Shown: piece by piece, positions 11,211-31,265 of the stretch | How the letters are laid out: every line of letters begins with the position of its first letter | Numbering within the stretch: position 1 is the stretch's first letter | Position numbers and translations under genes: made by a program | Assembly (NCBI RefSeq): GCF_029360805.1 | Contig: NZ_JARKNC010000008.1 | Location: 680,339-744,338, forward strand | Reading direction: 5' to 3' | DNA length: 64,000 nucleotides | From: Daejeonella sp. JGW-45 | GTDB lineage: Bacteria; Bacteroidota; Bacteroidia; Sphingobacteriales; Sphingobacteriaceae | The notes under the pieces: generated by a model | What the model saw: only the letters and a program-made list of their open reading frames with translations | What the model was told of the DNA's origin: nothing | Databases searched by the model: none

Positions 11211-14087
11211 CTACTGATTAAATGTGAAACCTACATAATACATTCCACCCATCAGCGGGTTACCGTACGATGTAGTATAATATTTATTCAGAAGATCCGA
11301 GGCTCCAATCTTAATTACTGACTTCACGCTAGGGATCTTAAGATTTACCTGTGCATCGACGGTACCAAAGGCCGGTACATCGCCTGAAGCGAAAGAGGAA
11401 GTCCAGTAGAATGAGTCCTGCCACCTGTATGATGCATTAAAACCTACGTTTTTAACCACTTCACGACTGGCCAGGCCAAGATTGTAGCGTATAGTAGGCG
11501 TATTGAAGTCATTGACATAAGTTGCAGGAATATCACCGATTTCATTATATGAAACGTTTCCGTTAAGATTAAACTTCCCAATCATATAATCCATACCAAG
11601 AGCAGCACCGTAAGCTGTAACTTCTCCGGCTGCGTTTACCGGAACACCAAACCTGGTGAAGACGTTAGAGACATTTTGATAGACATCGACCGCAGTGATG
11701 AAATCTTTATACTGGTTATAATAACCGTATGCATCAATCAGAACGTTGGCGCCGAGCAGGCCTTTATAACCGAGCTCGTAAGCCTTTACACTCTCCGGCC
11801 TTACACCTTTTGGATCAAAGGTATAGGTTTGTAACAATGCAGGGTTAGGTGCACCCGCAGAAGCCGACGCGAGGAATGCACGGTAGCTGACATCGGTATA
11901 AGGTTTGTTTGTATACAGGCTATATTTTGAGAGACTTTCGGGTAAACCGCCGATCAAACGTGTGGCACCTCCAAGAACTGCCAGATCAATATACTGATTC
12001 TGTGTTGTTGGGTTACGGTATCCTGTTTGAAACGATGCACGGATGTTGTTGTTAGGGGCAACAGTTAAAACCCCGGTAACTCTTGGCGTGAAACGGCCCT
12101 CGAAGTTCATGCTCTTATCATAGCGTCCGGCAAGCGTCAGTTTAAATATATCGCCAAGTTTCTTTCCCATCTGCACGAAACCGCCGTATTCATTGATATC
12201 AATTTCGCGATTCAAATCGTCAAAGATAGTACCGCCGGAGTTAAGGTCATAAACACGGTAAGATGCCCCCACCTGAAGCTCAATTTTATCCTTAAGAAGA
12301 TTAGTGAAATTATACATTCCCTCATAATGCCACAAGTTCGAGTTATCATCAAATTTCGCTCCCGCCCCTGAACTGATCGTTGAGTTCATGATCTTTTCTT
12401 TTGCGGCATTAAACTGGGGGGAACCTACTTCATAACGACCCACATCCGCTGCAGAACGGGCGAGACCGTGAGCCTGCATATCAGGAGCACCCGCAGCACG
12501 GGCTCCAACGTAGTTACCTACATACTGAGGGAACCATGTTGAATTGCTTTTTGAAGTTTCGTTAATATAAACACCCAGGATCGAAGAAATATATGAATCA
12601 CCTGAACGCTCCTGGGTAGTGTAGCCACGCAGCATGAAATCCTGGCCTTTTAATTCTAATTTATACTGCCCGATACTGAAGTTCCTTAATGAATATCGAT
12701 CAGATCCGGTATAGACAGATGTACCAGCTCCCCAATTAACCTGTGCAATTGCCTCGACCGTGTTACTCAGCTTATAATGAAGTGAATTTGATGTTTTGAA
12801 AGACCTCGCATCATAATCAACCAGGTCTTTCTCCATATAGCCTGTTCTTGAAACTGATTGATCAGGAATTAAGCCTGCCCGTAAACCTATATTAAAGGGA
12901 ATAGCATTTTGAATAGCTGGCCGCAATGCAGCAGGGAAACCACCCAGGAATGTGCCGATTTGAGTTGGCGTTGCAGTAACAGGCAAGGAGGCCGTAATAA
13001 CCGCATTAATGTTTGGAATAAGTCCGCCAGACGCTGCTGCAATACCTGCTGATGTAGCAGTAAGAACGTTGTTTGCCACGTTCCGCATATTTACGCTTAC
13101 TTCGTCACCATATACGTTTATACCATCATAATTAGGATCCGTACTTCTGCTGCCGGCTTTCTGGGTACGTGAGTTTCTATCGAAATTAGTGTAGTTTGTC
13201 GCCTGCCAGTCATCTGCCGTTAACAATGAAACCGTAGTTTTAACAGCAAATTTATTCCATGCTTTAGCAAATCGCACACCTGCTTCCTGAAATGGCCTGG
13301 CTTTTTGATTCGGATCGTTGAGGTGGTTTAAGCCGGTTTTTAATTGAAAACTAACGCCCTGGGAAGTATATGGGCTTTTAGAAGTCAGGAGCATCGTACC
13401 GTTGATACCGCCAGCTCCGTAAAGTGCTGATGAAGCGCCTGGCAGAAGCTCAACATTATCCACATCAAGCTCACTCATACCGATAATATTACCCACTGCA
13501 AAATTCAAGGCGGGAGCCTGATTGTCCATTCCATCAACGTACTGATTGAAGCGGGTGTTACCGTTCGCATTGAATCCGCGGGTGTTAACAGATTTGAATG
13601 TTAAACTCTGGGCGCTCAGTTCCACGCCCTTTAAATTAGTTAATGCATCATAAAAAGACGGGGATGCTGTTTCCTTGATAGCTGAAAGGCCAACACGCTC
13701 AATCGACACCGGTGATTCCAATATCTTTTCCGGCGTGCGGGACGCTGCTATAACAACTTCCTGCCCCAATATCGACTGGGCTTCCATCGAAATTAACAGA
13801 GCCGCTGACGACGAAGTAACAACCTGTTCAACTGTTCTGTAGCCCAGGTAGCTCACCACGATGGTGAAAGGCACCGCTGCTGGAGTTGAAAGCGTAAACT
13901 GCCCGCTTTCATTTGTAGAAGTACCGCCCGACATCCCTTTAACTGTTACCGAAACACCCGGAAGTGTTTCTCTTGTTAAATTATCCGTCACAGTCCCCGA
14001 AATGGTGATATTCTGGGCAAATACCATGCTCGTAGCCGCTGCAAATACAATCAATATGCAAGCCAGACGGGTGAAAACTCTACTCAT
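11211..14087 (-). CDS. TonB-dependent outer-membrane receptor
   Basis: An outer-membrane beta-barrel importing a substrate using TonB energy. 958 residues. A signal peptide (residues ~1-25, ending VFAQ) is followed by a carboxypeptidase-regulatory-like domain (GTVTDNLTRETLPGVSV..., ~28-105), a plug domain (~115-240, ending near SALYGAGGINGTMLL) and the barrel, which ends in the aromatic pattern YYVGFTFNQ. There is no SusD-like partner next to it, so it need not be a polysaccharide importer; siderophore, peptide or sugar are all possible. A good promoter match lies upstream (14127-14157). The 3' end abuts a 7-bp-period repeat tract. Confidence 0.92.
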   Translation of the reverse strand: MSRVFTRLACILIVFAAATSMVFAQNITISGTVTDNLTRETLPGVSVTVKGMSGGTSTNESGQFTLSTPAAVPFTIVVSYLGYRTVEQVVTSSSAALLISMEAQSILGQEVVIAASRTPEKILESPVSIERVGLSAIKETASPSFYDALTNLKGVELSAQSLTFKSVNTRGFNANGNTRFNQYVDGMDNQAPALNFAVGNIIGMSELDVDNVELLPGASSALYGAGGINGTMLLTSKSPYTSQGVSFQLKTGLNHLNDPNQKARPFQEAGVRFAKAWNKFAVKTTVSLLTADDWQATNYTNFDRNSRTQKAGSRSTDPNYDGINVYGDEVSVNMRNVANNVLTATSAGIAAASGGLIPNINAVITASLPVTATPTQIGTFLGGFPAALRPAIQNAIPFNIGLRAGLIPDQSVSRTGYMEKDLVDYDARSFKTSNSLHYKLSNTVEAIAQVNWGAGTSVYTGSDRYSLRNFSIGQYKLELKGQDFMLRGYTTQERSGDSYISSILGVYINETSKSNSTWFPQYVGNYVGARAAGAPDMQAHGLARSAADVGRYEVGSPQFNAAKEKIMNSTISSGAGAKFDDNSNLWHYEGMYNFTNLLKDKIELQVGASYRVYDLNSGGTIFDDLNREIDINEYGGFVQMGKKLGDIFKLTLAGRYDKSMNFEGRFTPRVTGVLTVAPNNNIRASFQTGYRNPTTQNQYIDLAVLGGATRLIGGLPESLSKYSLYTNKPYTDVSYRAFLASASAGAPNPALLQTYTFDPKGVRPESVKAYELGYKGLLGANVLIDAYGYYNQYKDFITAVDVYQNVSNVFTRFGVPVNAAGEVTAYGAALGMDYMIGKFNLNGNVSYNEIGDIPATYVNDFNTPTIRYNLGLASREVVKNVGFNASYRWQDSFYWTSSFASGDVPAFGTVDAQVNLKIPSVKSVIKIGASDLLNKYYTTSYGNPLMGGMYYVGFTFNQ

Positions 14088-14126
14088 AATTGTCAGATTA
14101 GTTTTTGGTTATTTTAATTGTATTTA

Positions 14127-14157
14127 TAAACTTAAGTAGAATTTTGATTCTGGCAAG
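14127..14157 (-). promoter_or_regulatory. Promoter of the TonB-dependent receptor gene
   Basis: On the minus strand CTTG (-33) is followed after 19 bp by TAAGTTTA (-7; plus positions 14127-14134). This matches the Bacteroidota TTTG-N19-TAnnTTTG arrangement closely. The transcript would start near 14120, giving a leader of about 30 nt. Confidence 0.55.
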
Positions 14158-14305
14158 CACTTTCAATTAATTTTTTTATGCTTGCATAGTATTATTAGTC
14201 GCTTATTTATCATAAATTAACATTTTGATAAAATTAAATATTAAGACTACAACAACATTCTGAGATCATTTTGTAACTTTTAACCGGGACAATCCCGCTT
14301 CGTAA

Positions 14306-16747
14306 ATGAAAATTATCAAAGCCATTCTTTCTTCAGCACTTGCTTTAATATTGGTTGTCTCCCTGAATAGCAAGTTCGGCGACATCCCTCCTTTAGGTAA
14401 GTTCCTTGATCCTTTCCGGGGATTCTGGAAAAACGCTGAAAACAGAAAAATAAATCCCGAGCGTAACTTGAAAGTGGATGGGCTGCACGGACCGGTTGAA
14501 ATTAAATTTGACGAACGCATGGTGCCCCACATATTTGCCGGCAATAATTACGATCTGTATTTCGCCCAGGGATACGTGACAGCCAAGGACAGGCTTTGGC
14601 AGATGGATTTTCAGACGCGATTTGCTTCAGGCCGGCTGTCTGAAGTAGTGGGTTCGAAAGCTATTGAACTGGACCGGTACCAGCGGCGGATGGGAATGAC
14701 CTATGGTGCCGAAAACATGGTGAAGACCATGATGAAGGATCCGGTGATCAAGGAAATTATGGAAGCCTATGCAGCAGGGATAAACGCTTACATCCATTCG
14801 CTCAAGCCGGGCCAATACCCGTTAGAATATAAGCTATTGAACTATATCCCTGAAGATTGGACCCCGTTGAATTCGGCGCTGTTACTAAAACTCATGTCGG
14901 CCACGCTTGCCGGCGGATCTAATGAATTCTACATGAGCAATATTCTGAATAAATATGGACCGGAAATTACCCGGGACCTCTTTCCGGACTATCCATTTCG
15001 TGAGGATCCGATCATACCCGCTGGAACGAATTGGGATTTCACCCCGGGTGTTCCCCCAAAAAAACCCGAAGTACTAAGCAACAACAAAAAAACTTACAAT
15101 ATCAAAACACGTGAACTTGAAGACGGTATTGGCAGTAATAATTGGGCGGTAGCAGGTGCAAAATCTGCGAGCGGATACCCGCTGCTGGCTAACGATCCTC
15201 ACCTTGACATTACCCTGCCGTCAATATGGTACCAGATACAACTGGTATCTCCGGACCTCAACACCTGCGGGGTATCCATCCCAGGCTCGCCAGGGGTCAT
15301 CATCGGATTTAACAAGGACGTAGCCTGGGGTGTTACAAATGTTGGTGCTGACGTGCTGGACTGGTATAACATTGAATTTAAAGACGCGACAAAAAAAGAA
15401 TATTGGTATAATAACAAATGGAATGAGGTGAAGGTTAGAGTAGAAACCATCGAAGTTAAAGGCGGCGAGACCATAACCGACAGCATCTATTATACTCACC
15501 ACGGACCTATTGTTTATACCAGTGAACAAAGACCTGAAAAATTCTCGAAAATCAACAACATCCCCACCGGGCATGCATTGCGGTGGGTAGCGCATGACGG
15601 TTCAAATGACGTCAGAACCTTTTATGAATTAAACAAGGCGAAAAACTATACGGACTATCGTAAAGCTCTTACCCACTATTCGGCACCTGCACAAAACTTT
15701 ATTTTTGCCAGCGTCGAAAACGACATCGCAATCACTCCTAATGGATATTTTCCAATGAAGTGGAAGGGCCAGGGGAAATTCCTTATGGACGGCTCTGACC
15801 CTGCGAACGACTGGCACGGCAGGATCCCTGCGGAGCAAAATCCGACGGTTAAAAACCCCGCGCGGAATTTCGTGAGCTCTGCGAACCAATTCCTGACTGA
15901 TCAGAGTTATCCTTATTATATCAATTGGGAATTTGCAGCATACGAACGCGGGCATAGGATCAATAAACGCCTGGCCGTAATGACACAGGCAAATGTAGAC
16001 AGTATGAGAAATCTGCAAAACGACAATTACAGCATACTCGCTGAAAATATTCTGGCGACACTTGTCTCACTTGTTAACACCGAAAAGTTAAATGCCAGCC
16101 AGCGCGAAGGGTATGAAATCGTCAGTAAGTGGAACAAGTTTTTTAATGCGGAAGAGATTGGAGCAAGTATTTTCGAACTATGGCATAAAAGCCTGGCTAA
16201 AGAGATCTGGGAAGATGATCTGGGTAATCCTAAAACTCCAATGCGCTATCCTTCCCGCGACAGAAACGTTCATCTTTTACTCAATGAGCCAAATTCTCCG
16301 TGGTTTGACAATGTTCATACGGCAAAAAAAGAAACCCGGGCAGACGCGGTAAATGCCGCATTCAGATTCGCTATTGACAGTCTTGAAAGAAAATACGGGC
16401 CTCTGAAAAAGGAGTGGCAATGGGGAAATGTGAAGCACACGAATGTTCCCCACCTGGCAAAAGTCGCCGGCTTTGGGTCCAAATTCCTGAATAACGGCGG
16501 GTCTAAATCTTCGGTCAATGCGATGAGTGAAAATAACGGGCCATCATGGCGTATGATCGTCGCCCTGGGCAAAGAGGTAAAAGCTTATGGCGTCTTTCCC
16601 GGGGGAGCATCAGGCAACCCGGGAAGTTACTATTATGACAACATGGTAGATACCTGGTCGGAAGGAAAACTTAATGAATTGGTTTACCTGAAATCGAAGG
16701 ACGAGAAACGGGCGGGTATTATAAGTACGTGGAAACTATCTGATTAG
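14306..16747 (+). CDS. Penicillin acylase family protein (Ntn hydrolase)
   Basis: An amidase of the penicillin G acylase/acyl-homoserine-lactone acylase family: an exported precursor that cleaves itself so that a new N-terminal Ser attacks amide bonds. 813 residues. There is one N-terminal hydrophobic segment (~4-22, signal or anchor), then the alpha chain (~55-240), a linker, and the beta chain starting at Ser277 in GIGSNNWAV. Other family segments are ANDPHLDITLPS, GSPGVIIGFN and SANQFLTD. The natural substrate could be an N-acyl-homoserine lactone, an aculeacin-like peptide or another amide. Divergent from the receptor gene; the stop codon abuts a 7-bp-period repeat. Confidence 0.92.
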   Translation: MKIIKAILSSALALILVVSLNSKFGDIPPLGKFLDPFRGFWKNAENRKINPERNLKVDGLHGPVEIKFDERMVPHIFAGNNYDLYFAQGYVTAKDRLWQMDFQTRFASGRLSEVVGSKAIELDRYQRRMGMTYGAENMVKTMMKDPVIKEIMEAYAAGINAYIHSLKPGQYPLEYKLLNYIPEDWTPLNSALLLKLMSATLAGGSNEFYMSNILNKYGPEITRDLFPDYPFREDPIIPAGTNWDFTPGVPPKKPEVLSNNKKTYNIKTRELEDGIGSNNWAVAGAKSASGYPLLANDPHLDITLPSIWYQIQLVSPDLNTCGVSIPGSPGVIIGFNKDVAWGVTNVGADVLDWYNIEFKDATKKEYWYNNKWNEVKVRVETIEVKGGETITDSIYYTHHGPIVYTSEQRPEKFSKINNIPTGHALRWVAHDGSNDVRTFYELNKAKNYTDYRKALTHYSAPAQNFIFASVENDIAITPNGYFPMKWKGQGKFLMDGSDPANDWHGRIPAEQNPTVKNPARNFVSSANQFLTDQSYPYYINWEFAAYERGHRINKRLAVMTQANVDSMRNLQNDNYSILAENILATLVSLVNTEKLNASQREGYEIVSKWNKFFNAEEIGASIFELWHKSLAKEIWEDDLGNPKTPMRYPSRDRNVHLLLNEPNSPWFDNVHTAKKETRADAVNAAFRFAIDSLERKYGPLKKEWQWGNVKHTNVPHLAKVAGFGSKFLNNGGSKSSVNAMSENNGPSWRMIVALGKEVKAYGVFPGGASGNPGSYYYDNMVDTWSEGKLNELVYLKSKDEKRAGIISTWKLSD

Positions 16748-16777
16748 TTGTACGTTATACGTTTTACGTTGTAAGTT
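16746..16777. repeat. Left inverted arm of four-helix-bundle element 1 (7-bp period)
   Basis: 32 bp in heptads GTTGTAC, GTTATAC, GTTTTAC, GTTGTAA. It matches the reverse complement of 17267-17298 at 29 of 32 positions. The arm starts on the stop codon of the penicillin-acylase gene. Confidence 0.8.
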
Positions 16778-16805
16778 GCTGGGTGTTTAGGTATGACGGA
16801 GAAAG

Positions 16806-17165
16806 TTAAAGAGCAGAACGCACTTTGTGGATTAATGAGATTAACATTGCCTTGATTTCATTTATATTATCATTTAAGACGCGATGCTCTTCTTTTGGTA
16901 AATATCCAAGGTCTTTTGATAAAAGCAGAAAATATTCAGCTTCATTCGCAGACCCTAATGCAATATTTAGAAAATTGCTAAACTCCTTTTGAGTATTCTT
17001 ACCACAGCCTTCCGCAATATTAGCAGGAATTCCCGATGAGCACCGCCTTAGCTGATTTGTCAAAGTGTATAACTCCTCTTTGGGGAACACTTTGGTAACA
17101 TGATAAATTCTAAGAGCAAACTGATGAGCCTTTTCCCAAACCTTTAGTTCTTTATAATTCTGCAT
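16806..17165 (-). CDS. Four-helix-bundle protein (23S rRNA intervening-sequence protein family)
   Basis: 119 residues beginning MQNYKELKVWEKAHQFAL, a typical opening of the four-helix-bundle/S23 family first known from 23S rRNA intervening sequences. Other family hallmarks are QLRRCSSGIPANIAEG and FLNIALGSANEAEYF. The protein is all-helical and forms ring-like oligomers in known relatives; its biochemical role is not established. The start was set at 17165 because longer frames add an unrelated leader. The gene lies between convergent neighbours and inside an inverted repeat pair (16746-16777 and 17267-17298). It may be cargo of a small mobile element. Confidence 0.9.
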   Translation of the reverse strand: MQNYKELKVWEKAHQFALRIYHVTKVFPKEELYTLTNQLRRCSSGIPANIAEGCGKNTQKEFSNFLNIALGSANEAEYFLLLSKDLGYLPKEEHRVLNDNINEIKAMLISLIHKVRSAL

Positions 17166-17266
17166 ATACAGCAAACCTAGCGAACATAAAGTGTTACACA
17201 GGAATTGACTTATTAAGCGGTAGGTTCGGTTGTGTATCCGTTCAGAACGTAAAACTTTATCCGTCC

Positions 17267-17298
17267 AACTTACAACGTATAACTTACAACGTACAACT
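17267..17298. repeat. Right inverted arm of four-helix-bundle element 1
   Basis: 32 bp in heptads (AACTTAC, AACGTAT, AACTTAC, AACGTAC). It ends exactly one base before the stop codon of the LuxE-like gene (17299). It pairs with the arm at 16746-16777 with three mismatches. Confidence 0.8.
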
Positions 17299-18285
17299 CT
17301 ACTGTACCAGCAGATTACATCCACGAATATCACTATTATCAAATCGTCCCAAAACTTCAAAAGTCCCCCCTTCGAAAGTTTTTCCGAGATCCTGAACAGC
17401 TATAAAAGAACAGGAATTAATATTAGCCAGATCGGTCACATTAATTCCCCCCGTTTGTCCATGGCTTAAAAGTTCCAGCGGGTCGTTGGTATCACGGATG
17501 CTTACCCTCATCCAGGGCGGGCAGTGAAAAATCCCGGCTCCCTTTGAATAAGCTTGTGATAAGAGCTCAGTCATTCCATATTCTGAATGTATTACGGGAA
17601 CTCCAAAGCCACTGCATAATATTTCGTGCAGTTCTGTTCGTACCATTTCGCGCCGCTTACCCTTCATTCCGCCGGTTTCCATAACTATCAACTCAGGAAA
17701 GTCGACAGAATGGCCCTCCGCAAAATCCAGCAGAGCATAGGTCACGCCTATTAATATCGTGTGAGTTTTTGTACTCTTCAGGTGAAGCAGAGTGTCGTTT
17801 AATGTTTTATGGTCATAAAGAAAATAGCCGCTGTTATCATTCTCGCTCCCCCTGATCAGATCATCAGCCATGTATATCAGTGATGAACCATCTCTTTCAA
17901 GGTAAGACGGCAATAACGCGAGAATGGCATACTTTCTAATATCGCCATAAAAGATCTCAAAAGTCTTGCGAAAACTTTGTACATAAACTTCCACATCGAG
18001 CACCGCGTGCTTACTTTGCGCCATTCCGGTGGTACCCGAACTTGTGAACACTTCTTCCGCAGTTCCCGAACCACTCATAACCTGATGGCTTTTAAAAAAT
18101 TCTATAGGGAGAAAGGGTATGCTGTTTAGATCAGAGACCTTATCAGCTCTGATACCAAGATTTTTTACAAAGTCTGAGTATACCTGACAATTTTCAGCCT
18201 GATACCTGAATATTTCCAAAGCCAGGCTTTCGAACTGCGGTTGACTCTGGATCGAAAAAATCGCTTTCGGATCAATTTTATGCAC
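17299..18285 (-). CDS. LuxE-like acyl-protein synthetase / acyltransferase
   Basis: About 328 residues of the LuxE/phenylacetate-CoA-ligase-like adenylate-forming family. In LuxE, fatty acid is activated as acyl-AMP and passed to a Cys. Visible segments are IPFLPIEFFKSH, the phosphate loop FTSSGTTG, METGGMKG, and SEYGMTELLSQAYS. The frame opens further upstream (to 18378), but that would overlap the next gene; a GTG at 18285 gives VHKIDPKAIFSI, close to the usual beginning of relatives, and is preferred. The true acyl substrate is unknown. It may be co-transcribed with the small membrane protein upstream. Confidence 0.82.
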   Translation of the reverse strand: MHKIDPKAIFSIQSQPQFESLALEIFRYQAENCQVYSDFVKNLGIRADKVSDLNSIPFLPIEFFKSHQVMSGSGTAEEVFTSSGTTGMAQSKHAVLDVEVYVQSFRKTFEIFYGDIRKYAILALLPSYLERDGSSLIYMADDLIRGSENDNSGYFLYDHKTLNDTLLHLKSTKTHTILIGVTYALLDFAEGHSVDFPELIVMETGGMKGKRREMVRTELHEILCSGFGVPVIHSEYGMTELLSQAYSKGAGIFHCPPWMRVSIRDTNDPLELLSHGQTGGINVTDLANINSCSFIAVQDLGKTFEGGTFEVLGRFDNSDIRGCNLLVQ

Positions 18286-18320
18286 GCCCAAAGATACAAC
18301 TTGATGATGTAGATTCCCTG

Positions 18321-18680
18321 TCAGGCTTTTTCGGGTATGACCATTGCCTGTCTGAAATAATATCCTGCCAGAGAGCAAAATCCAGCCGCAAGAGCACCCA
18401 CGAGCCCAGAAATCAAAATGACAATTATCCAGTTAATACCCGTTTCAGGAAGTCCCAGCATCGCCCCTATCCTGTTTGCCAGAAGGTTCCCGTTGGGAAG
18501 GCTATAGAATAATGCTGTTCCGACCCATAAGATAAAAACCCCAAAAAAGCCTGATGAAAAGGCGTGGCTTGCATTTTTTGCTTTCCAAAACGCGGCTCCA
18601 AAAGCTAGCGGGGTTATTATCCACCATGGGAGAAATAACTGCATCAAAAAACAGATGATTACGATTATGAAAAACAACAT
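18321..18680 (-). CDS. Small integral membrane protein, unknown function
   Basis: 119 residues with about four hydrophobic segments (~2-18, ~20-30, ~42-60, ~82-108) and a short polar C-terminus. No catalytic motif is seen. It precedes the LuxE-like gene by ~35 bp in the same direction, so the two may be expressed together. The composition and clean start (MLFFIIVIICFLM) support a real gene. Confidence 0.7.
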   Translation of the reverse strand: MLFFIIVIICFLMQLFLPWWIITPLAFGAAFWKAKNASHAFSSGFFGVFILWVGTALFYSLPNGNLLANRIGAMLGLPETGINWIIVILISGLVGALAAGFCSLAGYYFRQAMVIPEKA

Positions 18681-18713
18681 GGCTTATCTCTTTAACTGTT
18701 AACTTTCTCCGTT

Positions 18714-18743
18714 ACGCACGTAAAACGTACCACGTGCAACTTA
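18714..18743. repeat. 7-bp-period repeat tract, GTAAAAC type
   Basis: Heptads GTAAAAC, GTACCAC, GTGCAAC, TTACAAC continue into the 3' end of the Tat-exported oxidoreductase gene (stop at 18741-18743). Its orientation is opposite to the related tract at 22479-22510. Confidence 0.65.
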
Positions 18744-20189
18744 CAACTTCAAATCCTTCCATCCTTCCCTGTATTCCCTCTTCACAAACTGGTTAGCCAG
18801 ATCAAAATTAGTGATCTTCATATTTGGCCCGTCCCAAAGAAGTTTCCTGAACCTTCCCGGATACTGGAAATTATTACCATTCGGCACGCGGATATCAAAA
18901 CCCCGGATCGCCAGGTTACCCATAAGCAATGCTTCGGTTAACGGCCCCGCGATAGAGAAGTCTGAGCTGAGTTCCATCTTTCCATAACCAGCGATTGATG
19001 CATCGACCCATTGAGTATAATGGCCTGCTTCCTCTCCCGGTACGCGGGCAAGTGTTTGAGGGATACTAACTACCTCATTCAGCGATAGCGGCAATAAGCG
19101 AGGGTTCTTGCCGTATGTATCACAAAGCATTTTTCCTTTAGTCCCGATGAACAAAACACCATTCCCGCCGTCGCCGAATTTATCATCCGGCCCGAGTTCC
19201 TCAGGACGTTCCGGTTGGATTCCGCCATCCATCCAGTGGAGCTTAACCAAGCCTCCGCTTTGCTTCGCCGACTTGAATGTCATGGTCACATGTGACGATG
19301 GGGGGCAACTTTCCGGGAAATATCCCCGTTTAAATTCATCTACATAAACGCTGCCTACACTGCACTCTACATCCAGCGGATATTGCAGGCCAAGCGTTCT
19401 GAACGGGGCGTCCACCAGGTGACAGCCCATATCGCCAAGGGCGCCTGTTCCATAATCCCACCATCCTCTCCAGTTAAACGGTACGAGTTTATTTACATAA
19501 TCCTTATAAGGCGCTGTTCCTAACCAGAGGTCCCAGTCCAAACCTTTCGGCACGTCGGCTTTTAAGTCAGACCATGGCACACCCTGAGGCCACACCGGCC
19601 GGTCGGTCCAGCAATAAACAGTATGGACATCGCCAATCAGGCCAGCGTTATACCATTCCTGCAGCTTACGGGTACCGTCAGATGAAGCGCCCTGATTTCC
19701 CATTTGGGTAACCACTTTATATTTCTTTGCAGCTTCGGTAAGTATCCTTGCCTCATAAATATCGTGAGTTAAAGGCTTTTGAACGTATACGTGCTTTTTC
19801 CGTTTCATAGCCTCCAGGGTAACCAAAGCATGGTTGTGATCCGGGGTTGAGACCGATACTGCATCAAAGTGCCGATGTTCTTTATCCAACATCTCCCGCC
19901 AGTCTTTGTAGTATTTAGCTTTAGGGAAGTTCTTTATTGAATTAGCCGCGCGGCGGTCGTCTACATCACAAAGAAAAGCAATTTCTGCCTTCGGATTCTT
20001 TGCGAAGCCTGTCAGGTCGCTCGCACCCTTTCCGCCGACACCAACGCCGGCGATAAGCAATTTATCGCTTGGCGCCAGAAAGCCTTTACCTCCCAGTACG
20101 TGACGGGGCACGATCATAAATCCGGCTGCTGCCACCGAAGCAGCCTTTACAAAGTCTCTTCTTGAAGTTTTAGTTTCTTGTTCGTTCAT
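18741..20189 (-). CDS. Tat-exported Gfo/Idh/MocA-family oxidoreductase
   Basis: 482 residues with a twin-arginine signal (TSRRDFVKAASVAAAGF, residues ~8-25), so it is folded with its nucleotide cofactor before export to the periplasm. The Rossmann segment (IAGVGVGGKGASDL), VSTPDHNHALV, the family signature YVQKPLTHD, and DMGCHLVDAPF are visible. The length is typical of the exported Bacteroidota branch, in which some members act as glycosidase-like or keto-sugar-forming enzymes with tightly bound NAD. It is last in the minus-strand set isomerase - GMC - small subunit - this gene. The last codons lie in a 7-bp-period repeat. Confidence 0.9.
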   Translation of the reverse strand: MNEQETKTSRRDFVKAASVAAAGFMIVPRHVLGGKGFLAPSDKLLIAGVGVGGKGASDLTGFAKNPKAEIAFLCDVDDRRAANSIKNFPKAKYYKDWREMLDKEHRHFDAVSVSTPDHNHALVTLEAMKRKKHVYVQKPLTHDIYEARILTEAAKKYKVVTQMGNQGASSDGTRKLQEWYNAGLIGDVHTVYCWTDRPVWPQGVPWSDLKADVPKGLDWDLWLGTAPYKDYVNKLVPFNWRGWWDYGTGALGDMGCHLVDAPFRTLGLQYPLDVECSVGSVYVDEFKRGYFPESCPPSSHVTMTFKSAKQSGGLVKLHWMDGGIQPERPEELGPDDKFGDGGNGVLFIGTKGKMLCDTYGKNPRLLPLSLNEVVSIPQTLARVPGEEAGHYTQWVDASIAGYGKMELSSDFSIAGPLTEALLMGNLAIRGFDIRVPNGNNFQYPGRFRKLLWDGPNMKITNFDLANQFVKREYREGWKDLKL

Positions 20190-20211
20190 TTTATAGCTTT
20201 ATTAATATCTA

Positions 20212-20784
20212 TTATGCGTTTGCCCACATCCGGTCACCCTTTGTATAAGGAACATTTCCATCGTATCTTCCTGGAGTTTCGATATACCGGAGTGCTTTGG
20301 TTGCTCCTATTTCCGAGGTAAAAAATCCCAGCAGTGTCAGTTCCTTAACCATTCTAAAATAATGGGAAGGTTGCTCCGCTGTTTTTGCATCCATATAAGC
20401 TTTCTGAAGACCGTCCATTTTTACGAAGAACTTAGTCCGCTCTTCCGGTGTACATTCCATAAATGTTTTGCCGGTATCTTCCTTACATCTTTTCTCAAGC
20501 CTTGTAATTCCCTCACGGAATATCCCCTGATCCTTTTTTGTATAACAATCCTTAACCATTACCGCCATAAATTCGCCAACCTTAGCTTCTTTAGCTCCGG
20601 GTGTGCTGGTTTTTGGCAAAATAGTTTCGCCCATTTCGTTCAGCAATGCAATGGTTTCCGTATCAAAGAAGTCTTTAGCTTTCTCAGTACTTGTTTTGCA
20701 TCCGGATTCAAGAAAGATACTACCTCCTACGATGGTGCCACCCAGCAGCCAGCTTACTTGTGTTATTGCTTCTCTTCTGTCCAT
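20212..20784 (-). CDS. Gluconate 2-dehydrogenase subunit 3 family protein
   Basis: 190 residues: the small subunit that partners a GMC flavoprotein dehydrogenase. The N-terminus MDRREAITQVSWLLGG has a twin-arginine and a hydrophobic stretch, and a Cys at GC near residue 29 could be a lipid site. The body contains the family segments LNEMGETILPKTSTPGAKEA and LTLLGFFTSEIGATKAL, and ends in YDGNVPYTKGDR. It lies 10 bp after the GMC gene. In characterised dehydrogenases of this type the small subunit carries the Tat signal and takes the catalytic subunit along. Confidence 0.9.
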   Translation of the reverse strand: MDRREAITQVSWLLGGTIVGGSIFLESGCKTSTEKAKDFFDTETIALLNEMGETILPKTSTPGAKEAKVGEFMAVMVKDCYTKKDQGIFREGITRLEKRCKEDTGKTFMECTPEERTKFFVKMDGLQKAYMDAKTAEQPSHYFRMVKELTLLGFFTSEIGATKALRYIETPGRYDGNVPYTKGDRMWANA

Positions 20785-20794
20785 GTAACTAAGA

Positions 20795-22474
20795 TTAAAT
20801 ATTGCCCTTTTTCAATTCTGACACTGCATGATCTACTGCCCTTGCCGTCATCGCCATATAGGTTAATGAGGGGTTCTGGCATGCTGCCGATGTCATGGCT
20901 GCACCGTCGGTAACAAACACATTTGTTGCATCCCATACCTGGTTAAACTTGTTTAATACAGACGTTTTCGGATCATGGCCCATACGTGCGGTACCCATTT
21001 CGTGAATTCCCATCCCAAGGGTATAACCAGTATCAAATGTTTTGACATCTTTCAAACCTGCAGCTTCCAGCATATCTTTTGCATCCTGCATCATGTCTTT
21101 GCGCATCTTAAGCTCGTTATCTTTTATTTCTGCATCAATAGCAAGCACATTCAGACCCCATTTATCCTTGTTTGTTTTATCGAGCGTAACTTTGTTCTCA
21201 TGGTAAGGCAAGGTTTCGCCAAAGCCGGTGATGCCCATATTCCAGTTCCCTGGTTCGCAGAGAGCATCCTTAAAATCGCCGCCAATGCTCATTTCGGCTA
21301 TGTTCCTTCCCCAACCTTCCCTGCTGGCCGAACCCTGATAACCGAAACCGCGCAGGTAATCCCTTTTCTCACTTCCAAGGTTCCTGAAGCGTGGAATATA
21401 TATTCCATTCGGTCTCCGGCCATAAAAGTATTTATCATCAAATCCCTCGGCCCTGCCCGATGCACCAGTCCGGAAGTGGTGATCCATTAAATTGTGGCCA
21501 AGTTCGCCACTGCTGCTGCCCAAACCTCCATCCCATACGTCGGTAGCAGAATTCATCAGTATCCAGGTTGAGTTTAATGCTGAGGCATTCAGGAAAATAA
21601 CCTTGGCAAAATATTCATAGGTTTTATTCGTTTCCGCATCTAAAACCTCTACTCCCTTTGCTTTCCTTGTATCCTTATCATATAATATCTTGGTAACTAT
21701 CGAAAACGGGCGCAGCGTCAGGTTCCCCGTTGCTACTGCTGCCGGCAAGGTCGACGACTGCGTGCTAAAGTAAGCGCCGAAGGGACATCCGAGCCAGCAC
21801 TTGCTCCGGTACTGACAATTTGTACGGCTCTGAAGGGGCTGGGTAATATTTGCAGTCCTGCCGATAACCATATTCCTTTCGCCCTTATAGTGAGCTTTAA
21901 TTCTGGCAGCTACGTCTTTCTCCACAACGTTCATTTCCATCGGAGGCTGGAACTCGCCATCAGGCAGTTGTGGCAAGCCGTCACGGTTACCGCTAATGCC
22001 TGCGAAACGTTCCACATAACCATACCATTTCTCCAGATCCTTGTAACGGATCGGCCAGTCGACTGCAATTCCTTCCTTCGCGTTTGCTTCAAAATCAAGA
22101 TCACTGAGCCGGTAACTCTGCCTTCCCCACATCAATGAACGGCCACCTACATGATACCCCCGGTACCAGTCAAAACGCTTCACTTCGGTATAAGGGCTTT
22201 CCTTATCCTTTACCCAAAAATCCAGGTTCTTTTCATTCAGAGGGTAATCCCGCTTAAGTACAGGATAATTCTCGATCATCTCCTGCGTTCTGCCTCCCCT
22301 GTGAGGAAAATCCCATGGATTTTTAGTTGCATTGACATAGTCCTTAATATGCTCTATGTTCCTGCCTCGCTCAAGCATAATCGTTTTAAGCCCTTTTTCT
22401 GTAAGCTCCTTTGCCGCCCATCCGCCACTGATCCCGGAACCAATTACTATTGCGTCGTAAGTATTATCAGCCAT
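20795..22474 (-). CDS. GMC-family FAD-dependent sugar dehydrogenase, catalytic subunit
   Basis: 559 residues. The FAD-binding motif is at the N-terminus (DAIVIGSGISGGWAAKEL, then MLERG). A Cys-rich segment NCQYRSKCWLGCPFGA (~215-230) is followed by the C-terminal active-site blocks MGIHEMGTARMG and SAACQNPSLTYMA with the expected His and Asn. No signal peptide is present, so export probably depends on the Tat signal of the adjacent subunit 3. Relatives oxidise gluconate, glucosides or other sugars, several at C3. The electron acceptor is likely cytochrome c, encoded across the divergent promoter. Confidence 0.93.
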   Translation of the reverse strand: MADNTYDAIVIGSGISGGWAAKELTEKGLKTIMLERGRNIEHIKDYVNATKNPWDFPHRGGRTQEMIENYPVLKRDYPLNEKNLDFWVKDKESPYTEVKRFDWYRGYHVGGRSLMWGRQSYRLSDLDFEANAKEGIAVDWPIRYKDLEKWYGYVERFAGISGNRDGLPQLPDGEFQPPMEMNVVEKDVAARIKAHYKGERNMVIGRTANITQPLQSRTNCQYRSKCWLGCPFGAYFSTQSSTLPAAVATGNLTLRPFSIVTKILYDKDTRKAKGVEVLDAETNKTYEYFAKVIFLNASALNSTWILMNSATDVWDGGLGSSSGELGHNLMDHHFRTGASGRAEGFDDKYFYGRRPNGIYIPRFRNLGSEKRDYLRGFGYQGSASREGWGRNIAEMSIGGDFKDALCEPGNWNMGITGFGETLPYHENKVTLDKTNKDKWGLNVLAIDAEIKDNELKMRKDMMQDAKDMLEAAGLKDVKTFDTGYTLGMGIHEMGTARMGHDPKTSVLNKFNQVWDATNVFVTDGAAMTSAACQNPSLTYMAMTARAVDHAVSELKKGNI

Positions 22475-22478
22475 TTTT

Positions 22479-22510
22479 AGTTGTACGTTTTACGTTGTAA
22501 GTTTTACGTT
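22479..22510. repeat. 7-bp-period repeat tract, GTTGTAC type
   Basis: Heptads GTTGTAC, GTTTTAC, GTTGTAA, GTTTTAC. The sequence is almost the same as the left arm of the four-helix-bundle element at 16746, but no opposite arm or gene is present. It sits between the isomerase stop and the GMC start. Confidence 0.7.
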
Positions 22511-22534
22511 CTGTATTTGTTCTTTATTCGCCTT

Positions 22535-23419
22535 CTACACGTCACACAACTCCACCGCCTGCCGTAAGGATCCCAGCTTATCGGCTTTTACAGGAATAAA
22601 TTCCTGGGCAACATACCCTTTGAACCCGGTTCCTACTATTGCCTTCATAATTGCAGGGTAATTTAGTTCCTGTGTTTCATCGATCTCGTGCCTTCCAGGT
22701 ACTCCGGCCGTATGGTAATGCGCAAAATACTGGTGATTGTCACGGATGGTCCGGATCACATCGCCTTCATCGATCTGCATATGATAAATATCGTAAAGCA
22801 GTTTGAAGTTCTCCGAACCAACCCGCTTCACGAGCTCCACACCCCACGGTGTTTTGTCGCACTGGTAGTCTTTATGATCAATCTTACTGTTTAATAGTTC
22901 CATAACCAGGAGAACATTGTTCTTCTCAGCAAGTGACATCAACTGCTTCAGGCCTTCGGTACAGTTGGCAAGACCAGTTTCATCATCTTTTCCAGCCCTG
23001 TTACCGCTAAAACAGATCAGGTTTTTATAGCCGGCTTTCGCCAGCAAGGGAATCATATCTGAATACTGCTTGATGAGTGTCGCATGGTATTGCTTATCGT
23101 TAAACCCGTTAATCAGATTTATCTCGGCACCATTACACATACTCGAGTCCAGTCCATATTTCTGAAGCATCGGCCAATCCTTCGGCCCAACGATATCTAT
23201 GGCCTTTAAACCCATATCCTTAGCTGCAATGCATAACTCTTCAACTGAAAACGAGTTAAAGCACCACCGGCATACCGAATGATTAATATTACCTTTCAAC
23301 ACCCGGGCGTTTGAATGACTGCCGGAATCAAAGGATGAGAGTAAACCTGCAGAAGTAATTGCTGCAGTTCCGGTAAGAATGTTTTTAATAGCCCGACGGC
23401 GATGTGTATTGGAAGCCAT
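22535..23419 (-). CDS. Exported sugar phosphate isomerase/epimerase-like TIM-barrel protein
   Basis: 294 residues of the AP-endonuclease-2/hydroxypyruvate-isomerase-like TIM barrel. The N-terminus has an arginine-rich Tat-like signal (HRRRAIKNILTGTAAITSAGLLSSF). Family segments include KAIDIVGPKDWP, LVMELLNSK (metal Glu), LLYDIYHMQIDEGD (metal Asp/His), HYHTAGVPGRHE and GYVAQEFIP. It would isomerise or epimerise a free or keto sugar in the periplasm. It is first in the minus-strand set, which diverges from the ThuA/dehydrogenase fusion gene. Confidence 0.88.
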   Translation of the reverse strand: MASNTHRRRAIKNILTGTAAITSAGLLSSFDSGSHSNARVLKGNINHSVCRWCFNSFSVEELCIAAKDMGLKAIDIVGPKDWPMLQKYGLDSSMCNGAEINLINGFNDKQYHATLIKQYSDMIPLLAKAGYKNLICFSGNRAGKDDETGLANCTEGLKQLMSLAEKNNVLLVMELLNSKIDHKDYQCDKTPWGVELVKRVGSENFKLLYDIYHMQIDEGDVIRTIRDNHQYFAHYHTAGVPGRHEIDETQELNYPAIMKAIVGTGFKGYVAQEFIPVKADKLGSLRQAVELCDV

Positions 23420-23727
23420 ATCATATATATTTAACAGGTTGACATTAACCCTGGTGGCACTGTAGCTTTGCTAATGTATTAATGGTTTGATTAGTTAACT
23501 GATTTGAATTGATACAAATCGAAAAGTCTCCAAACCGGTAAAACGCTGAATATAAGGACTTGGTGTAATTTATACACGAACTTTCCTGAATATTTGCGAT
23601 TAAGACCGCATAAATGCATTATTCCATATTGCAATTTAGTTTACTTGTAATAAATAAATGTATATTTTTATTTTTAAAAATCATACTTCCCATTCTCAAA
23701 CCCGGTAAGTTTTAAAGACAGCCTAAG
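23420..23727. other. Divergent promoter region of the sugar-oxidation cluster
   Basis: 308 bp, AT-rich, without a coding frame. It contains the operator-like site at 23558-23577, roughly midway between the two divergent starts. No unambiguous TTTG-N19-TAnnTTTG promoter was found on either strand, though AT-rich TATATTTT-like boxes occur near 23660. Confidence 0.6.
23558..23577. promoter_or_regulatory. Operator-like palindrome GTGTA-N5-TACAC (second copy)
   Basis: Arms GTGTA (23563-23567) and TACAC (23573-23577) with a 5-bp AT spacer, preceded by ACTTG. The first site at 695-714 has the same arms and spacing and the same ACTT. The shared site suggests a common regulator, most simply the Nudix-type protein at the left edge. 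Confidence 0.5.
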
Positions 23728-26700
23728 ATGAAAAATTCAACCCTTATATTATTCTCAACCGGGATCTTGCTTTCACTATTATCCTTTAGGATGCTGACCC
23801 AAACGTCAAAACCCCGGATCCTGGTTTTCAGCAAGACACCGGAGTACCGGCACGAGTCGATCGCTGCAGGAAAGGCTGCAATTATGAAACTCGGCAGAGA
23901 ACAGGGCTTTTCGGTTGATACCACAGAGGATGGAAGATATTTCACAGAGGATTCCTTAAAAAAATACAAGACCGTTGTATTTCTGAACACCACAGGAAAC
24001 ATTCTCAATACGCCCCAGCAAATAGCCTTTGAACGCTATATACAGGCAGGAGGCGGCTATGCCGGCATCCACGCTGCGGCGGATACCGAATACGACTGGC
24101 CCTGGTACGGCAAACTTGTGGGTGGGTATTTTGCCAGTCACCCTAAAATCCAGGCAGCTGTGATTAATGTGGTAGATCGTACAAATGCAGCCAGCAGTCA
24201 TTTACCAAAAAAGTGGAAGCGAACTGACGAATGGTATAACTATAAAAACCTTAATCCAGACGTAAAAGTCCTTGCATATCTGGACGAATCCAGTTACGAG
24301 GGCGGGCAAAATGGCACAAACCATCCTATTTCCTGGTATCATGCGTTTGACGGGGGCAGGGCTTTCTATACAGGCATGGGGCACACTGACGAAACGTTTT
24401 CCGACCCCTTGTTCTTAAAGCACCTTCTGGGGGGCATAAAATATGCAATGGGAAACAACACTGTACTTGACTACTCAAAAGCAAGCACCCCGAACGCACC
24501 AGAGGAGAACAGGTTTGTACGAACAGTTTTAACGCAGGGGACGCTGTTTGAGCCAACGGAAATGGCTATCCTTCCCAATCTTGATATACTTTTAGTGCAG
24601 CGGCGCGGCGAGATCCTTTTATATAAAGAACAAACCAAAAGCATTAGTCAGGTCGGTTCGCTAAATGTTTACTCAAAGACCTCAGTTCCGGGTGTGAATG
24701 CTGAAGAAGGCATATTAGGTCTGGCTGCCGACCCCCGATATAAAGAAAATAATTACATCTATATTTTTTACAGCCCGACTGACACGTCAGTAAACCGTTT
24801 ATCACGATTCCGATTCGTGAATGACCAGCTCGACCGATCCTCGGAAAAGATCGTCCTGGAGCTTTATTCACAGCGCGAGATCTGCTGCCATACAGGAGGT
24901 TCGATAGCTTTTGGCCCCGATGGTCTGCTTTATCTTTCAACGGGAGATAATTCAACGCCGTTCGATGTTCCGAATCAAAAATTTACCAACAAGGGCTTCG
25001 CGCCTCTCGATAACCGCCCCGGATTGGAACAGTATGACGCGGGAAGAAGTTCGGGAAACACCAACGACCTGCGAGGAAAGATCTTACGGATCCGGGTTCT
25101 GCCCGACGGGTCCTATCAGATCCCTGAAGGAAACCTGTTTCCACCCAATACACCGAAAACGCGCCCTGAGATCTATGTTATGGGAAACCGCAACCCGTAC
25201 AGGATATCGATAGACAGTAAAACCAATTTCCTATACTGGGGCGAAGTAGGACCGGATGCAGCGAATGATATAGCGGAACGAGGACCTCGCGGTTATGACG
25301 AATTAAACCAGGCAAGAAAGGCAGGCTTTTTCGGCTGGCCTTTCTTTGTGGGGAACAACTATCCTTACCGCCGTTATGATTACAGGACCGGCACGAGTGG
25401 TGAGGCTTTCGACAAACTTAAGCCGGTAAACAACTCGCCTAATAATACGGGCCTCGAAGATCTGCCGCCAGTATCTCCCGCATTTATCTGGTATCCCTAT
25501 GCAGCATCGAAAGAATTCCCTCAACTTGGAACAGGCGGAAGAAATGCGGAAGCCGGACCTGTGTACTATAGTGAATTGTTCCCTAAGGAGACTCGCTATC
25601 CGGATTATTTCGACGGCAAGCTATTTATGTACGACTGGATACGAGGCTGGGTTAAGTTAGTCACCATGAAGCCCAATGGCGATTACGACAGCATGGAGCC
25701 TTTTATGGGATCAACATCGTTTATCGCTCCGATAGACATGGAGGTTGGTCCTGATGGCAGATTATACATCCTGGAATATGGAAAGGGGTGGTTCTCTAAA
25801 AACGTAGATGCCGGCCTGGTGAGAATAGATTACGTTGCCGGTAACCGGCCGCCAAAGATAGACGATTTGATGATCAGCAGCACAAGCGGGATCATGCCTT
25901 ATAAGCTGCAGGCAAAAGTAGCAGCGGCCGACCCGGACCGGGACGACCTGACATATTTATGGGATTTGGGCAACGGAGTTAAAAAGACGACAAATCAGCC
26001 CTCTATTGAATATGTGTATACCAAAACCGGCGAATATCCGGTTAGTGTGCAGGTTACTGACAAGACCGGTGCAAGCACGGTAAGTCCTGCAAAAAGCGTA
26101 TTTGCAGGAAATGCACAGCCTAAACTGAATATCGCGTTAAAGGGTAACAAGACGTTCTATTTCCCTAATAAGCAGGTTGAATACACCGTCAATGTAAGCG
26201 ACCAGGGTTCAGCAGTTAACAGGGCTAAGATCTATGTCAGTACTACTTACACTAAGGGAATTGATATGGCCGGGGCTTCTCTGGGGCACCAGGAAGTACC
26301 CGAGATACAGGTTGGTGAAAGCCTGATGCTGAAATCAGATTGCTCTGCCTGTCACAAGGTAAATGCACCTTCGGTGGGGCCTTCTTTCACTCAGGTATCA
26401 TCAAAGTACGGGAAGGACCCTAATGCTTTGACCTATATAGCTGCAAAAATTCTGAAAGGCAGCAGCGGGGTTTGGGGGGAAGTGGCTATGCCGCCACATG
26501 CAAGTATGCCAGAGGATCAGGCTCAGAAAATAGCGGCCTACATTTTATCGCTTGGCAGCAAAACCTCCACCAGGCCGAGTCTTCCGGCACAGGGTAAGAT
26601 CATGCCGGCGGCCGGTTCCGGCGAGAACACAACTCTGAACATTCACGCGTCGTATACCGACGCAGGCTCTGCAAGTGTAAGGCCATTGACCGCGTCGGGA

Positions 26701-27108: not shown

Positions 27109-27121
27109 ATATTATTACAAA

Positions 27122-28288: not shown

Positions 28289-28298
28289 CATTTAGGAT

Positions 28299-29351: not shown

Positions 29352-29413
29352 ATTAAAAACTGTAACTTCACAACGCTGTTAACATGATACAGCAGATCTT
29401 AAAATAACGAACG

Positions 29414-29471
29414 TTGCATGGGCTTACCGCTCAGCCATGAAGATAAGCTCATGCAATCCCGCGCGTGCGGG
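29414..29471. repeat. Double hairpin upstream of the cytochrome c gene
   Basis: A 13-bp stem, TTGCATGGGCTTA (29414-29426) with TAAGCTCATGCAA (29444-29456, one G-T pair), is followed by a second hairpin CCCGC-gcgt-GCGGG (29458-29471). The layout and stem sequence match the double hairpin at 2598-2667 before gapA. It lies 20 bp before the cytochrome c start. Confidence 0.65.
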
Positions 29472-29491
29472 ACATAAAAAATTACACACTA

Positions 29492-29929: not shown

Positions 29930-29932
29930 CAT

Positions 29933-30640: not shown

Positions 30641-30710
30641 TTTTTGAGGAGGGGAATTTCAAACGTTCAGTTTTATTCTTAAGGTGAAGGCTGAGCCGAC
30701 TAACATTCGG

Positions 30711-30740
30711 AGCTGAAAGTTGTAAACTGAAAGCTGAAAT
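30711..30740. repeat. Left inverted arm of four-helix-bundle element 2 (7-bp period)
   Basis: Heptads AGCTGAA, AGTTGTA, AACTGAA, AGCTGAA. It matches the reverse complement of part of 31214-31265 at 26 of 30 positions. It lies 4 bp beyond the stop of the four-helix-bundle gene. Confidence 0.7.
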
Positions 30741-30744
30741 AAGC

Positions 30745-31104
30745 CTAGCGATTAAGAGAGGATTTAATGGTTTTAACAGTACTTACAAGCATTTGAATTA
30801 TTTCGCTGCAATCTGGGATAATGGACGAAAACTCTTCTTCAGTGAGATAATGTGAATCTTTCAGCAAAAGCAACCAAAACTTAGTCTCATTGGCTTCTTT
30901 CAAAGCAATGTTCATTTTATTTAGAAAGTCCGCTTTTGACTGTGCATGTTCTGCTTCATAGCTAAGAGCATCAGGAGCTGTTCCGCTTCTCAATAGCTGT
31001 TTGGAAAGCACGAATTCCCTTCTAGTTTCACATAAAAACTTATAAAGCTTTACGATCCTTATTGCAAATGCATACGTTTTAATCTGGATAAGGCTGTCTC
31101 TCAT
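30745..31104 (-). CDS. Four-helix-bundle protein, second divergent copy
   Basis: 119 residues, the same length as the copy at 16806 but of another subfamily (AFAIRIVKLYKFLCET, QLLRSGTAPDALSYEAEHAQ, SKADFLNKMNIALKEANET). It is all-helical and the function is not established. Like copy 1 it is on the minus strand, between convergent genes (DUF1080 and the D-threonine-aldolase-like gene), and flanked by inverted 7-bp-period arms, here with a different heptad sequence. Confidence 0.88.
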   Translation of the reverse strand: MRDSLIQIKTYAFAIRIVKLYKFLCETRREFVLSKQLLRSGTAPDALSYEAEHAQSKADFLNKMNIALKEANETKFWLLLLKDSHYLTEEEFSSIIPDCSEIIQMLVSTVKTIKSSLNR

Positions 31105-31213
31105 TAAATTGCTGCATTATATACGTTGCAACTTAATGAGAGAATAGGTGATTTGAGTAAATAATTATTTTACGACACAAGCCCTTGATTTAACGGAATT
31201 CAGTCTCGCTTTC

Positions 31214-31265
31214 CGTTTTCAGCTTTCAGTTTTCAGTTTTCAGCTTTCAGTTCCCAACTCTCAAC
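31214..31265. repeat. Right inverted arm of four-helix-bundle element 2
   Basis: Heptads TTCAGCT, TTCAGTT, TTCAGTT, TTCAGCT, TTCAGTT, CCCAACT, CTCAACT. The tract ends immediately before the stop codon of the next gene (31266). Confidence 0.8.

Follow-up and report, generated by a model that had tools for sequence, protein, structure and literature searches.

The window analysed here (the whole stretch of 64,000 nucleotides from Daejeonella sp. JGW-45, contig NZ_JARKNC010000008.1, positions 680,339 to 744,338) holds an element of ~550 bp that lies between two protein genes, has inverted arrays of heptads as its ends and carries an IVP/S23 gene as its sole coding content. The IVP gene (16806..17165, minus strand; 119 aa from ATG) encodes a four-helix-bundle protein of the PF05635/TIGR02436 family. 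To its left lies a penicillin-acylase-like gene (14306..16747, plus strand) and to its right a LuxE-like gene (17299..18378, minus strand), the latter being an open frame from TTG, its putative start. The left arm (16746..16778, i.e. the 3' arm relative to the IVP gene) is an inverted array of ~4.7 heptads (GTTGTAC, GTTATAC, GTTTTAC, GTTGTAA, GTTG), and the right arm (17266..17298, the 5' arm) is likewise an array of ~4.7 heptads (AACTTAC, AACGTAT, AACTTAC, AACGTAC, AAC). An earlier note, made from the sequence of the window, had described inverted arms around a small gene between convergent stop codons, the left arm starting from the stop codon of the acylase gene, the right arm reaching up to that of the LuxE-like gene. 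This is confirmed: the arms are 33 nt each, 91% complementary and 487 nt apart, the acylase open reading frame (ORF) ends at 16747 (the left arm thus begins within its stop codon), and the LuxE-like stop codon, which the right arm abuts, occupies 17299-17301.

Both arms are built of tandem degenerate 7-nt units, (AAC[GT]TA[ACT])n, and the right arm is followed inwards by a further degenerate heptad and sub-terminal sequence (17246..17265). The ungapped score of the arms is 24 compared to a maximum of 14 among 300 dinucleotide shuffles, by which a chance palindrome is ruled out, and RNA folding of both strands gives a stem that is closed by the arms (z of −5.4 and −6.1). No known RNA family was returned by an Rfam scan of window positions 14000-32000, and the element is not inside 23S rRNA. 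The heptad make-up of the arms, the repetition of the motif throughout the genome and a second PF05635 element in the window go beyond the earlier note, the observation of which was right while the underlying phenomenon is larger than it stated.

The protein had been assigned to a family known from rRNA intervening sequences (IVSs), with a fold related to that of Avd of the diversity-generating retroelements (DGRs). Kinship to the IVS family is borne out by matches to PF05635 (E 1.5e-40, 138.2 bits, cut-off 33.8) and TIGR02436 (E 8.5e-39, 132.2 bits, cut-off 24), both above the curated cut-offs, as well as by an IVS in 23S rRNA that has the same arms (see below). Matches to the Avd profile NF033474 (E 1.8e-7, 31.4 bits) and the bAvd profile (29.2 bits) are weak and remain under the respective cut-offs of 80 and 40, and the match to PHROG 3206 is weak too (E 1.6e-10). 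The AlphaFold2 model is a four-helix bundle (pLDDT 97.0), for which Foldseek gave XCC0516 (2GSC) and BT_0352 (2RLD) as nearest structures, followed by Avd. The template modelling (TM) score was 0.88-0.93 by query length for 2GSC and 0.75-0.81 by query for Avd (4DWL and 8UB7; E 0.01-0.33, identity 13-14%), so that the Avd-related fold is borne out on the predicted model as well. According to passages of a paper on the Coxiella IVS, 2GSC is pentameric and PF05635 proteins are without known function (PMC4990558); Avd and PF05635 are also treated in part of another paper (PMC10053308).

PF05635 genes are present in 18 of the 20 genomes of the genus, with 114 matches in total, of which 80 were taken, the 34 left out being mostly weaker or partial. 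In the flanks of these 80 genes (counts that are not independent, with 366 pairs of loci sharing flanks), a self-match of at least 0.75 at a lag of 7 was found in 39 upstream and 40 downstream flanks, versus 0-1 at lags 4-6 and 8-12. An arm score of at least 14 was reached in the inverted orientation at 56 of 78 loci (two being without flanks for this test), compared to 8 of 78 in the direct control. The signal is local, since lag 7 at a threshold of 0.7 or more is present at 101 of 157 sides near the gene versus 1 of 155 at 400 bp and 5 of 155 at 800 bp; period-7 arms are at background at these distances (0-7% of sides at 400-800 bp, versus 38-67% beside the gene).

The same anatomy recurs well outside the genus. 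Inverted arms were found at 17 of 19 loci on viral contigs (direct: 1), after 5 of 24 had been dropped as near-duplicates and with two similar loci (L175 and L176) both kept, and at 15 of 17 loci on mostly cyanobacterial plasmids (direct: 3), for which 17 of 29 matches were taken, including two (L205 and L206) that are one site. With 250-bp flanks, 11 of 15 plasmid loci pass the inverted-arm threshold; a lag of 8 also occurs there in 2 upstream and 3 downstream flanks of 17, with single cases at lags 4, 6 and 9. Among 80 loci from named genomes, lag 7 (at least 0.7 in either flank) was seen at 42, lag 8 at 7 and other lags at 0-2. In the phylum of genome G157 (taken as Pseudomonadota), where 62 of 398 sampled genomes have PF05635 genes, lag 7 was found in 13 upstream and 21 downstream flanks of 30 (lag 8: 2 and 2), and inverted arms at 21 of 30 loci, compared to 2 of 30 in direct orientation and 0 of 28 at an offset (L386 and L387 are alike, and both were kept). 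The earlier proposal of a small element bounded by terminal inverted repeats, with a single cargo gene, is thereby supported, inverted heptad arms recurring around many PF05635 genes; and far from being unconserved, which that proposal had named as a reason to drop it, such arms are found in the genus, viral, plasmid and other-phylum sets alike.

Two separate observations concern these sets. Three IVP genes on cyanobacterial plasmids (L198, L204 and L209) lie between cas genes (cas6/cas4; cas10/Cmr3), and 18 IVP genes in cas loci are mentioned in a part of PMC3936711. A metagenome-assembled genome labelled Limnohabitans (G152), with 9 PF05635 matches, groups with the window's own phylum and is probably mislabelled or a mixed bin; its locus L231 was counted among the 18 'non-Bacteroidota' named loci, and the set drawn from its phylum, in which 232 of 296 sampled genomes have PF05635 genes, repeats places of the congener G021 (as G287).

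The arms are oriented with respect to the gene. In a census of 80 genus, 80 named, 17 viral and 13 plasmid loci, read in the ORF sense, G exceeds C in 131 of 149 5' arms and in 143 of 155 reverse-complemented 3' arms. The 309 arm consensus heptads fall into 159 distinct rotations, and the median array length is 44-45 nt (detection minimum 28). With stop-to-stop frames of at least 100 aa, the stop codon of the upstream frame faces the element at 54 of 66 5' sides in the genus, 30 of them within 10 bp; on the 3' side this holds for 29 of 68 frames (19 within 10 bp). The stop-codon placement seen in the window is common for such elements, given these 30 of 66 5' sides. These features could also be read as a regulatory cassette, in which binding of IVP to the 5' heptads controls the mRNA of IVP itself and of the upstream gene, position polymorphism being secondary: the 5' arm is G-rich, C-poor and ahead of the start codon, elements stand behind stop codons in the sense direction, and TAACTGA repeats have been proposed, in a part of PMC4679880, as translational regulators. 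This is very unlikely, however, as neighbouring genes differ among the annotated plasmid loci, and the paired 3' arm and the gene-less arm pairs (see below) need another explanation.

The sequence of the heptad differs between loci and tracks the lineage of the IVP. Both arms of a locus have a similar 7-mer composition when compared in the inverted orientation (cosine 0.37), but not in the direct orientation (0.06) or with arms from loci of other genomes (0.02). In the genus, counting pairs that share no flanks, the more alike two IVPs are, the more alike are their heptads (Mantel r=0.443, 0 of 2000 permutations), and the same is seen in a cross-phylum set of 135 loci (80 named, 27 from the phylum of G157, 13 plasmid and 15 viral; 123 with arrays), where r is 0.298 (0 of 1000 permutations), to which shared flanks may contribute. 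Over the 20 genomes, the counts of three heptads are higher where the cognate IVP was seen (p=1.8e-4, 3.5e-4 and 0.012, the third being the weakest), with the cognate classes assigned by eye from 80 of the 114 loci and the genomes being related and non-independent. In the two genomes without IVP (G077 and G067), the counts of these heptads are 0 and 1, 0 and 0, and 4 and 0.

The host genome has five PF05635 genes according to the profile search. Besides the element described above, three have period-7 arrays (L002, L004 and L005) and one a weaker array (L003), with a different heptad at each. One of these (L005) is the second element of the window, consisting of a left arm (30711..30739, heptads A[AG]CTGAA), a PF05635 gene (30784..31086, minus strand, E 5.7e-22) and a right arm (31217..31252, heptads TTTTCAG/CTTTCAG). 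The heptads are not restricted to IVP genes: the pattern AACGTAYAACKT has 118 exact matches in the host genome, versus 0 for the reversed pattern. In the stretches around the first 100 of these matches, together with the window, neighbouring arrays at most 200 bp apart form 39 facing inverted pairs (38 distinct) and 1 pair in the opposite order. The spacers of the 39 facing pairs are 23-181 bp, and two further facing pairs have longer spacers of 397 bp and 468 bp, the latter being the window element. A core like CTGGG[CT]GG or GCGTTTAG is found in 21 of the 41 facing pairs, and a piece of it also stands beside the window arm (16777..16790, by-eye likeness to CTGGGCGG..TTTAG). We infer that the gene-less facing pairs are ends-only derivatives of the element. 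In one case (L112, 817-1038) the facing pair brackets a tRNA-Leu(gag) gene (858-942, by ARAGORN), and in another (L006 and L116) one and the same pair, with identical surroundings, is present on two oppositely oriented contig stretches, either as a true duplication or as an assembly repeat; this is why 38 rather than 39 pairs are distinct.

At the window locus itself, the gene is absent from nearly all congeners examined. Out of 18 congeners with LuxE, 17 loci were examined (G067 yielded no locus), and a convergent oxidoreductase gene is beside LuxE in 16 of them, being 1407 bp off in G021. Of the 16 congeners that keep this neighbourhood, 15 are without IVP gene and one (G042) has a gene that is decayed, with 3 stops (L094, 10046-10348). 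The earlier note had said that a constant position of the gene across relatives would speak against its proposal, and this is not what is seen. The heptad pattern has 94 matches in G042, which also carries a further IVP gene (L091) whose arms are similar. In 6 of the 15 gene-less congeners, other heptad arrays are present in the LuxE/oxidoreductase spacer (period-7 score of at least 0.68). The penicillin-acylase gene, where found, is upstream of LuxE on the same strand (all 20 such relatives' loci, of 29). In the window, LuxE and a small ORF (18321-18680) are inverted compared to G042, the closest congener. The inverted segment (17266-18754) has heptad arrays at both ends, i.e. the right arm and a degenerate array ahead of the oxidoreductase gene (18717..18754), for which reason the inversion is likely the result of repeat-mediated recombination between arms. 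With this segment inverted and the congeners highly diverged, the empty-site comparison for the window element is one of gene content.

Cleaner empty sites are found on plasmids. To 2401 bp of Trichormus variabilis plasmid C, six plasmids align over 1973 bp in two pieces, at 97.5-97.9% identity, and the missing 428 bp are the arms and gene, with GTAAT at both sides (as aligned for 2 of the 6 plasmids). Scytonema has an element at this site with two heptads fewer, and plasmid pC052_E (C052) has a partial IVP remnant there, which means that loss also happens. In other filled/empty comparisons, TTCTA stands on both sides and is probably a duplication (L207), the element truncates a gene at its end, with no clear duplication (L201), it has replaced ~11 bp (L200), or the inserts are imprecise or different without a clean junction (L203 versus C057 plasmids, L204 versus Dolichospermum). 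The empty sites that the earlier note had suggested looking for do exist, both on plasmids and at the LuxE loci of congeners, and it is on these that the element appears to behave as a mobile element.

An Rfam scan of 40 loci yielded one, on a plasmid of Azospirillum lipoferum (L208), that is within bacterial large subunit rRNA (RF02541, 2529 bits). This 23S IVS has heptad arms, and the sister rRNA copy on AZO_p3 is without IVS, 473 bp replacing 19 nt that read as a hairpin. Because of this heptad-armed copy inside 23S rRNA, the intergenic and rRNA forms share one anatomy. The observations on plasmids and rRNA bear directly on the alternative that IVP is an immobile host gene beside intergenic repeats, which grow by slippage and are spread by homologous recombination and vertical descent. 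Such a scenario would fit the IVP-less arrays in spacers (e.g. that between LuxE and oxidoreductase in six congeners), the varying number of heptads and the inversion near the arms. It is nonetheless decidedly unlikely, considering that the repeats are at background 400 bp from IVP, that the arms are inverted and oriented to the gene (with positive GC skew, as counted above), that the whole unit is cleanly absent from nearly identical plasmids, and that an insertion in 23S rRNA has an IVS-free sister copy.

If the element moves, the question becomes which enzymes move it. Reverse transcriptase (RT; RVT_1) genes were found in 3 of the 20 genus genomes (the host G000, G042 and G098), and Y1_Tnp, the one transposase family that was scanned for (its ends not included), in 13 of 20. 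The host has one RVT_1 gene (C9:402008-402574), which is outside the window (C9:680339-744338), so that there is no RT in cis. RT as a general motor is weakened by its presence in just 3 genomes, and a Y1/RAYT transposase by the absence of Y1_Tnp from G042. A retroelement, in which a hairpin RNA is bound by the Avd-like IVP and reverse transcribed by an RT in trans, would agree with the kinship of IVP to Avd in fold and sequence, with the three RVT_1 genomes being among the four richest in AACGTAY copies, and with the upstream gene being on the IVP strand in 54 of 66 elements. It is quite unlikely, though, with IVP in 18 and RVT_1 in 3 of 20 genomes, 35 copies in G086 without RVT_1, and no RT annotated beside the 15 annotated plasmid loci. 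Alternatively, the arms could be the ends of a non-autonomous DNA transposon resembling a miniature inverted-repeat transposable element (MITE), with an unlinked transposase and IVP as cargo without a role in movement. Terminal inverted repeats, many gene-less facing pairs and one duplication of 4-5 bp are what would be expected of it, but the linkage between IVP lineage and heptad holds across loci and phyla, the ends are tandem arrays of variable length (as in Scytonema versus Trichormus at one site), and Y1_Tnp is lacking in G042 despite its 94 heptad matches (DDE transposases with these ends being outside the search). This option, too, is considered unlikely.

The reading that seems to accommodate most of the above, and which we hold to be probable, is that of an IVS-type mobile element between genes, the IVP of which recognises the heptads of its own element and borrows other enzymes. 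Observed are the anatomy in multiple phyla, the IVP-heptad linkage, presence and absence at orthologous sites, the gene-less pairs and the 23S copy. Mechanistically, a ring of IVP would bind the tandem heptads of its own element, either in the RNA hairpin formed by the arms or at the DNA ends, and this binding may allow the element, as well as ends-only derivatives in trans, to reach new sites through borrowed host or foreign enzymes. Its persistence would come at low cost, as the element is often just behind a stop codon and the long stem of its transcript could be removed by RNase III, as is reported for rRNA IVSs. Slippage of the repeats would alter the number and order of heptads, and recombination between arms could yield inversions like the one seen in the adjacent LuxE segment.

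Several findings weigh against this reading. No transposition event was observed and IVP has no known catalytic domain, while neither RVT_1 nor Y1_Tnp fits as a universal motor, given their occurrence in 3 and 13 of 20 genomes; an integrase or transposase adjoins IVP at 4 of 15 annotated plasmid loci, which may be chance. In the seven filled/empty comparisons, a target-site duplication is clear in one (GTAAT), probable in one (TTCTA) and lacking in five, so that a uniform duplication is not supported and the suggestion of target-site duplications in the earlier note stands in a weaker form than proposed; the 23S insert replaced 19 nt. In the named genomes, inverted arms pass at just 36 of 80 loci (direct: 8 of 80). 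The IVP-heptad linkage could reflect common descent of a linked unit instead of binding; within single genomes the correlation is r 0.288, with only 2 pairs above 60% identity. The cognate classes of the count test were assigned by eye, and for one heptad (class C) up to 68 copies occur in genomes in which no cognate IVP was found. Finally, PMC4990558 describes the S23 ORF of Coxiella as decaying, with data suggesting that S23p is not produced in vivo, which argues against the protein being needed in that organism.

A bolder extension is possible, albeit tentative: these elements may form a distinct mobile class in which each subunit of a pentamer ring reads one heptad of an array of some five or more, and the 7-nt unit would serve as a lineage-specific 'address'. 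Full and ends-only copies with the same address would then spread jointly, in mRNA as well as rRNA and often just after a stop codon, and they would have left behind the orphan heptamers of Bacteroidota, Cyanobacteria, Beggiatoaceae and Xanthomonas. TRAP, for comparison, reads triplets around its ring. The figure of ~5 heptads is suggested by the pentamer of 2GSC and the median array length. If binding is specific, the more than 100 natural protein/heptad pairs would constitute a ready-made recognition code. In any case, tying IVP to heptads gives the protein a testable role (i.e. binding of its own heptads) and the repeats a possible source.

The window contains further arrays outside the two elements. 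A solo array of the window-arm family is present just upstream of the start of a GMC oxidoreductase gene (22480..22510, minus strand), another degenerate heptad-like array at 47473-47503, and one of a different type (ACTTTCA) at 34847-34863.

Heptamer repeats have so far been described separately in several groups, and a class of heptad-armed elements may explain such scattered 7-letter repeats in many bacteria. Cyanobacterial short tandemly repeated repetitive (STRR) sequences are intergenic, multi-copy and made of 7-nt degenerate tandem units, and the dispersed heptamer repeats in general resemble the arms described here in these same respects. TAACTGA is the reverse complement of a rotation of AGTTATC, a heptad present in IVP arms, and for its horizontal spread 'no mechanism is evident' in the words of a passage in PMC4679880. 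GGGAATC, known in Xanthomonas and Nostoc, counts 186 repeats in Xcc and 183 in Xac, with 70 and 75 close convergent pairs, as given in a part of PMC4692102. What differs is the interpretation, as sections of these two papers discuss regulation or G-quadruplexes; a text search of their main texts gave no 'four helix', 'four-helix' or 'intervening'. A literature search by motif letters found no paper, and in the open-licence literature none was found that links IVP genes in general with dispersed heptad repeats; the Coxiella paper does note the heptads of its own IVS.

Among other known systems, Avd of the DGRs shares the fold and the weak profile matches (NF033474 and PHROG 3206), but differs in its low sequence identity (13-14%) and in that the window element is without reverse transcriptase. 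REPINs, i.e. doublets of repetitive extragenic palindromic (REP) sequences, with their REP-associated tyrosine transposases (RAYTs), and MITEs are similar in having palindromic ends-only copies beside one candidate autonomous gene, whereas IVP is no Y1 (HUH) transposase and the ends here are heptad arrays. Close to the element, too, are the 23S IVSs. Passages of PMC4990558 describe that of Coxiella as 428 nt with a 28-bp terminal stem, removed by RNase III, with GACAGAT heptads ahead of the S23 start that vary in number among strains, and cite an earlier suggestion of IVSs as mobile elements, with the ORF serving mobility; the tie between IVP and heptads supports that idea. The IVSs of Coxiella and Azospirillum have in common with the window element the terminal inverted repeats with heptads, a size of ~430-470 bp, a single PF05635 ORF and an RNA hairpin. 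The window element differs from them in being intergenic, in a genome with five such genes, each with its own heptad, and many gene-less arm pairs.

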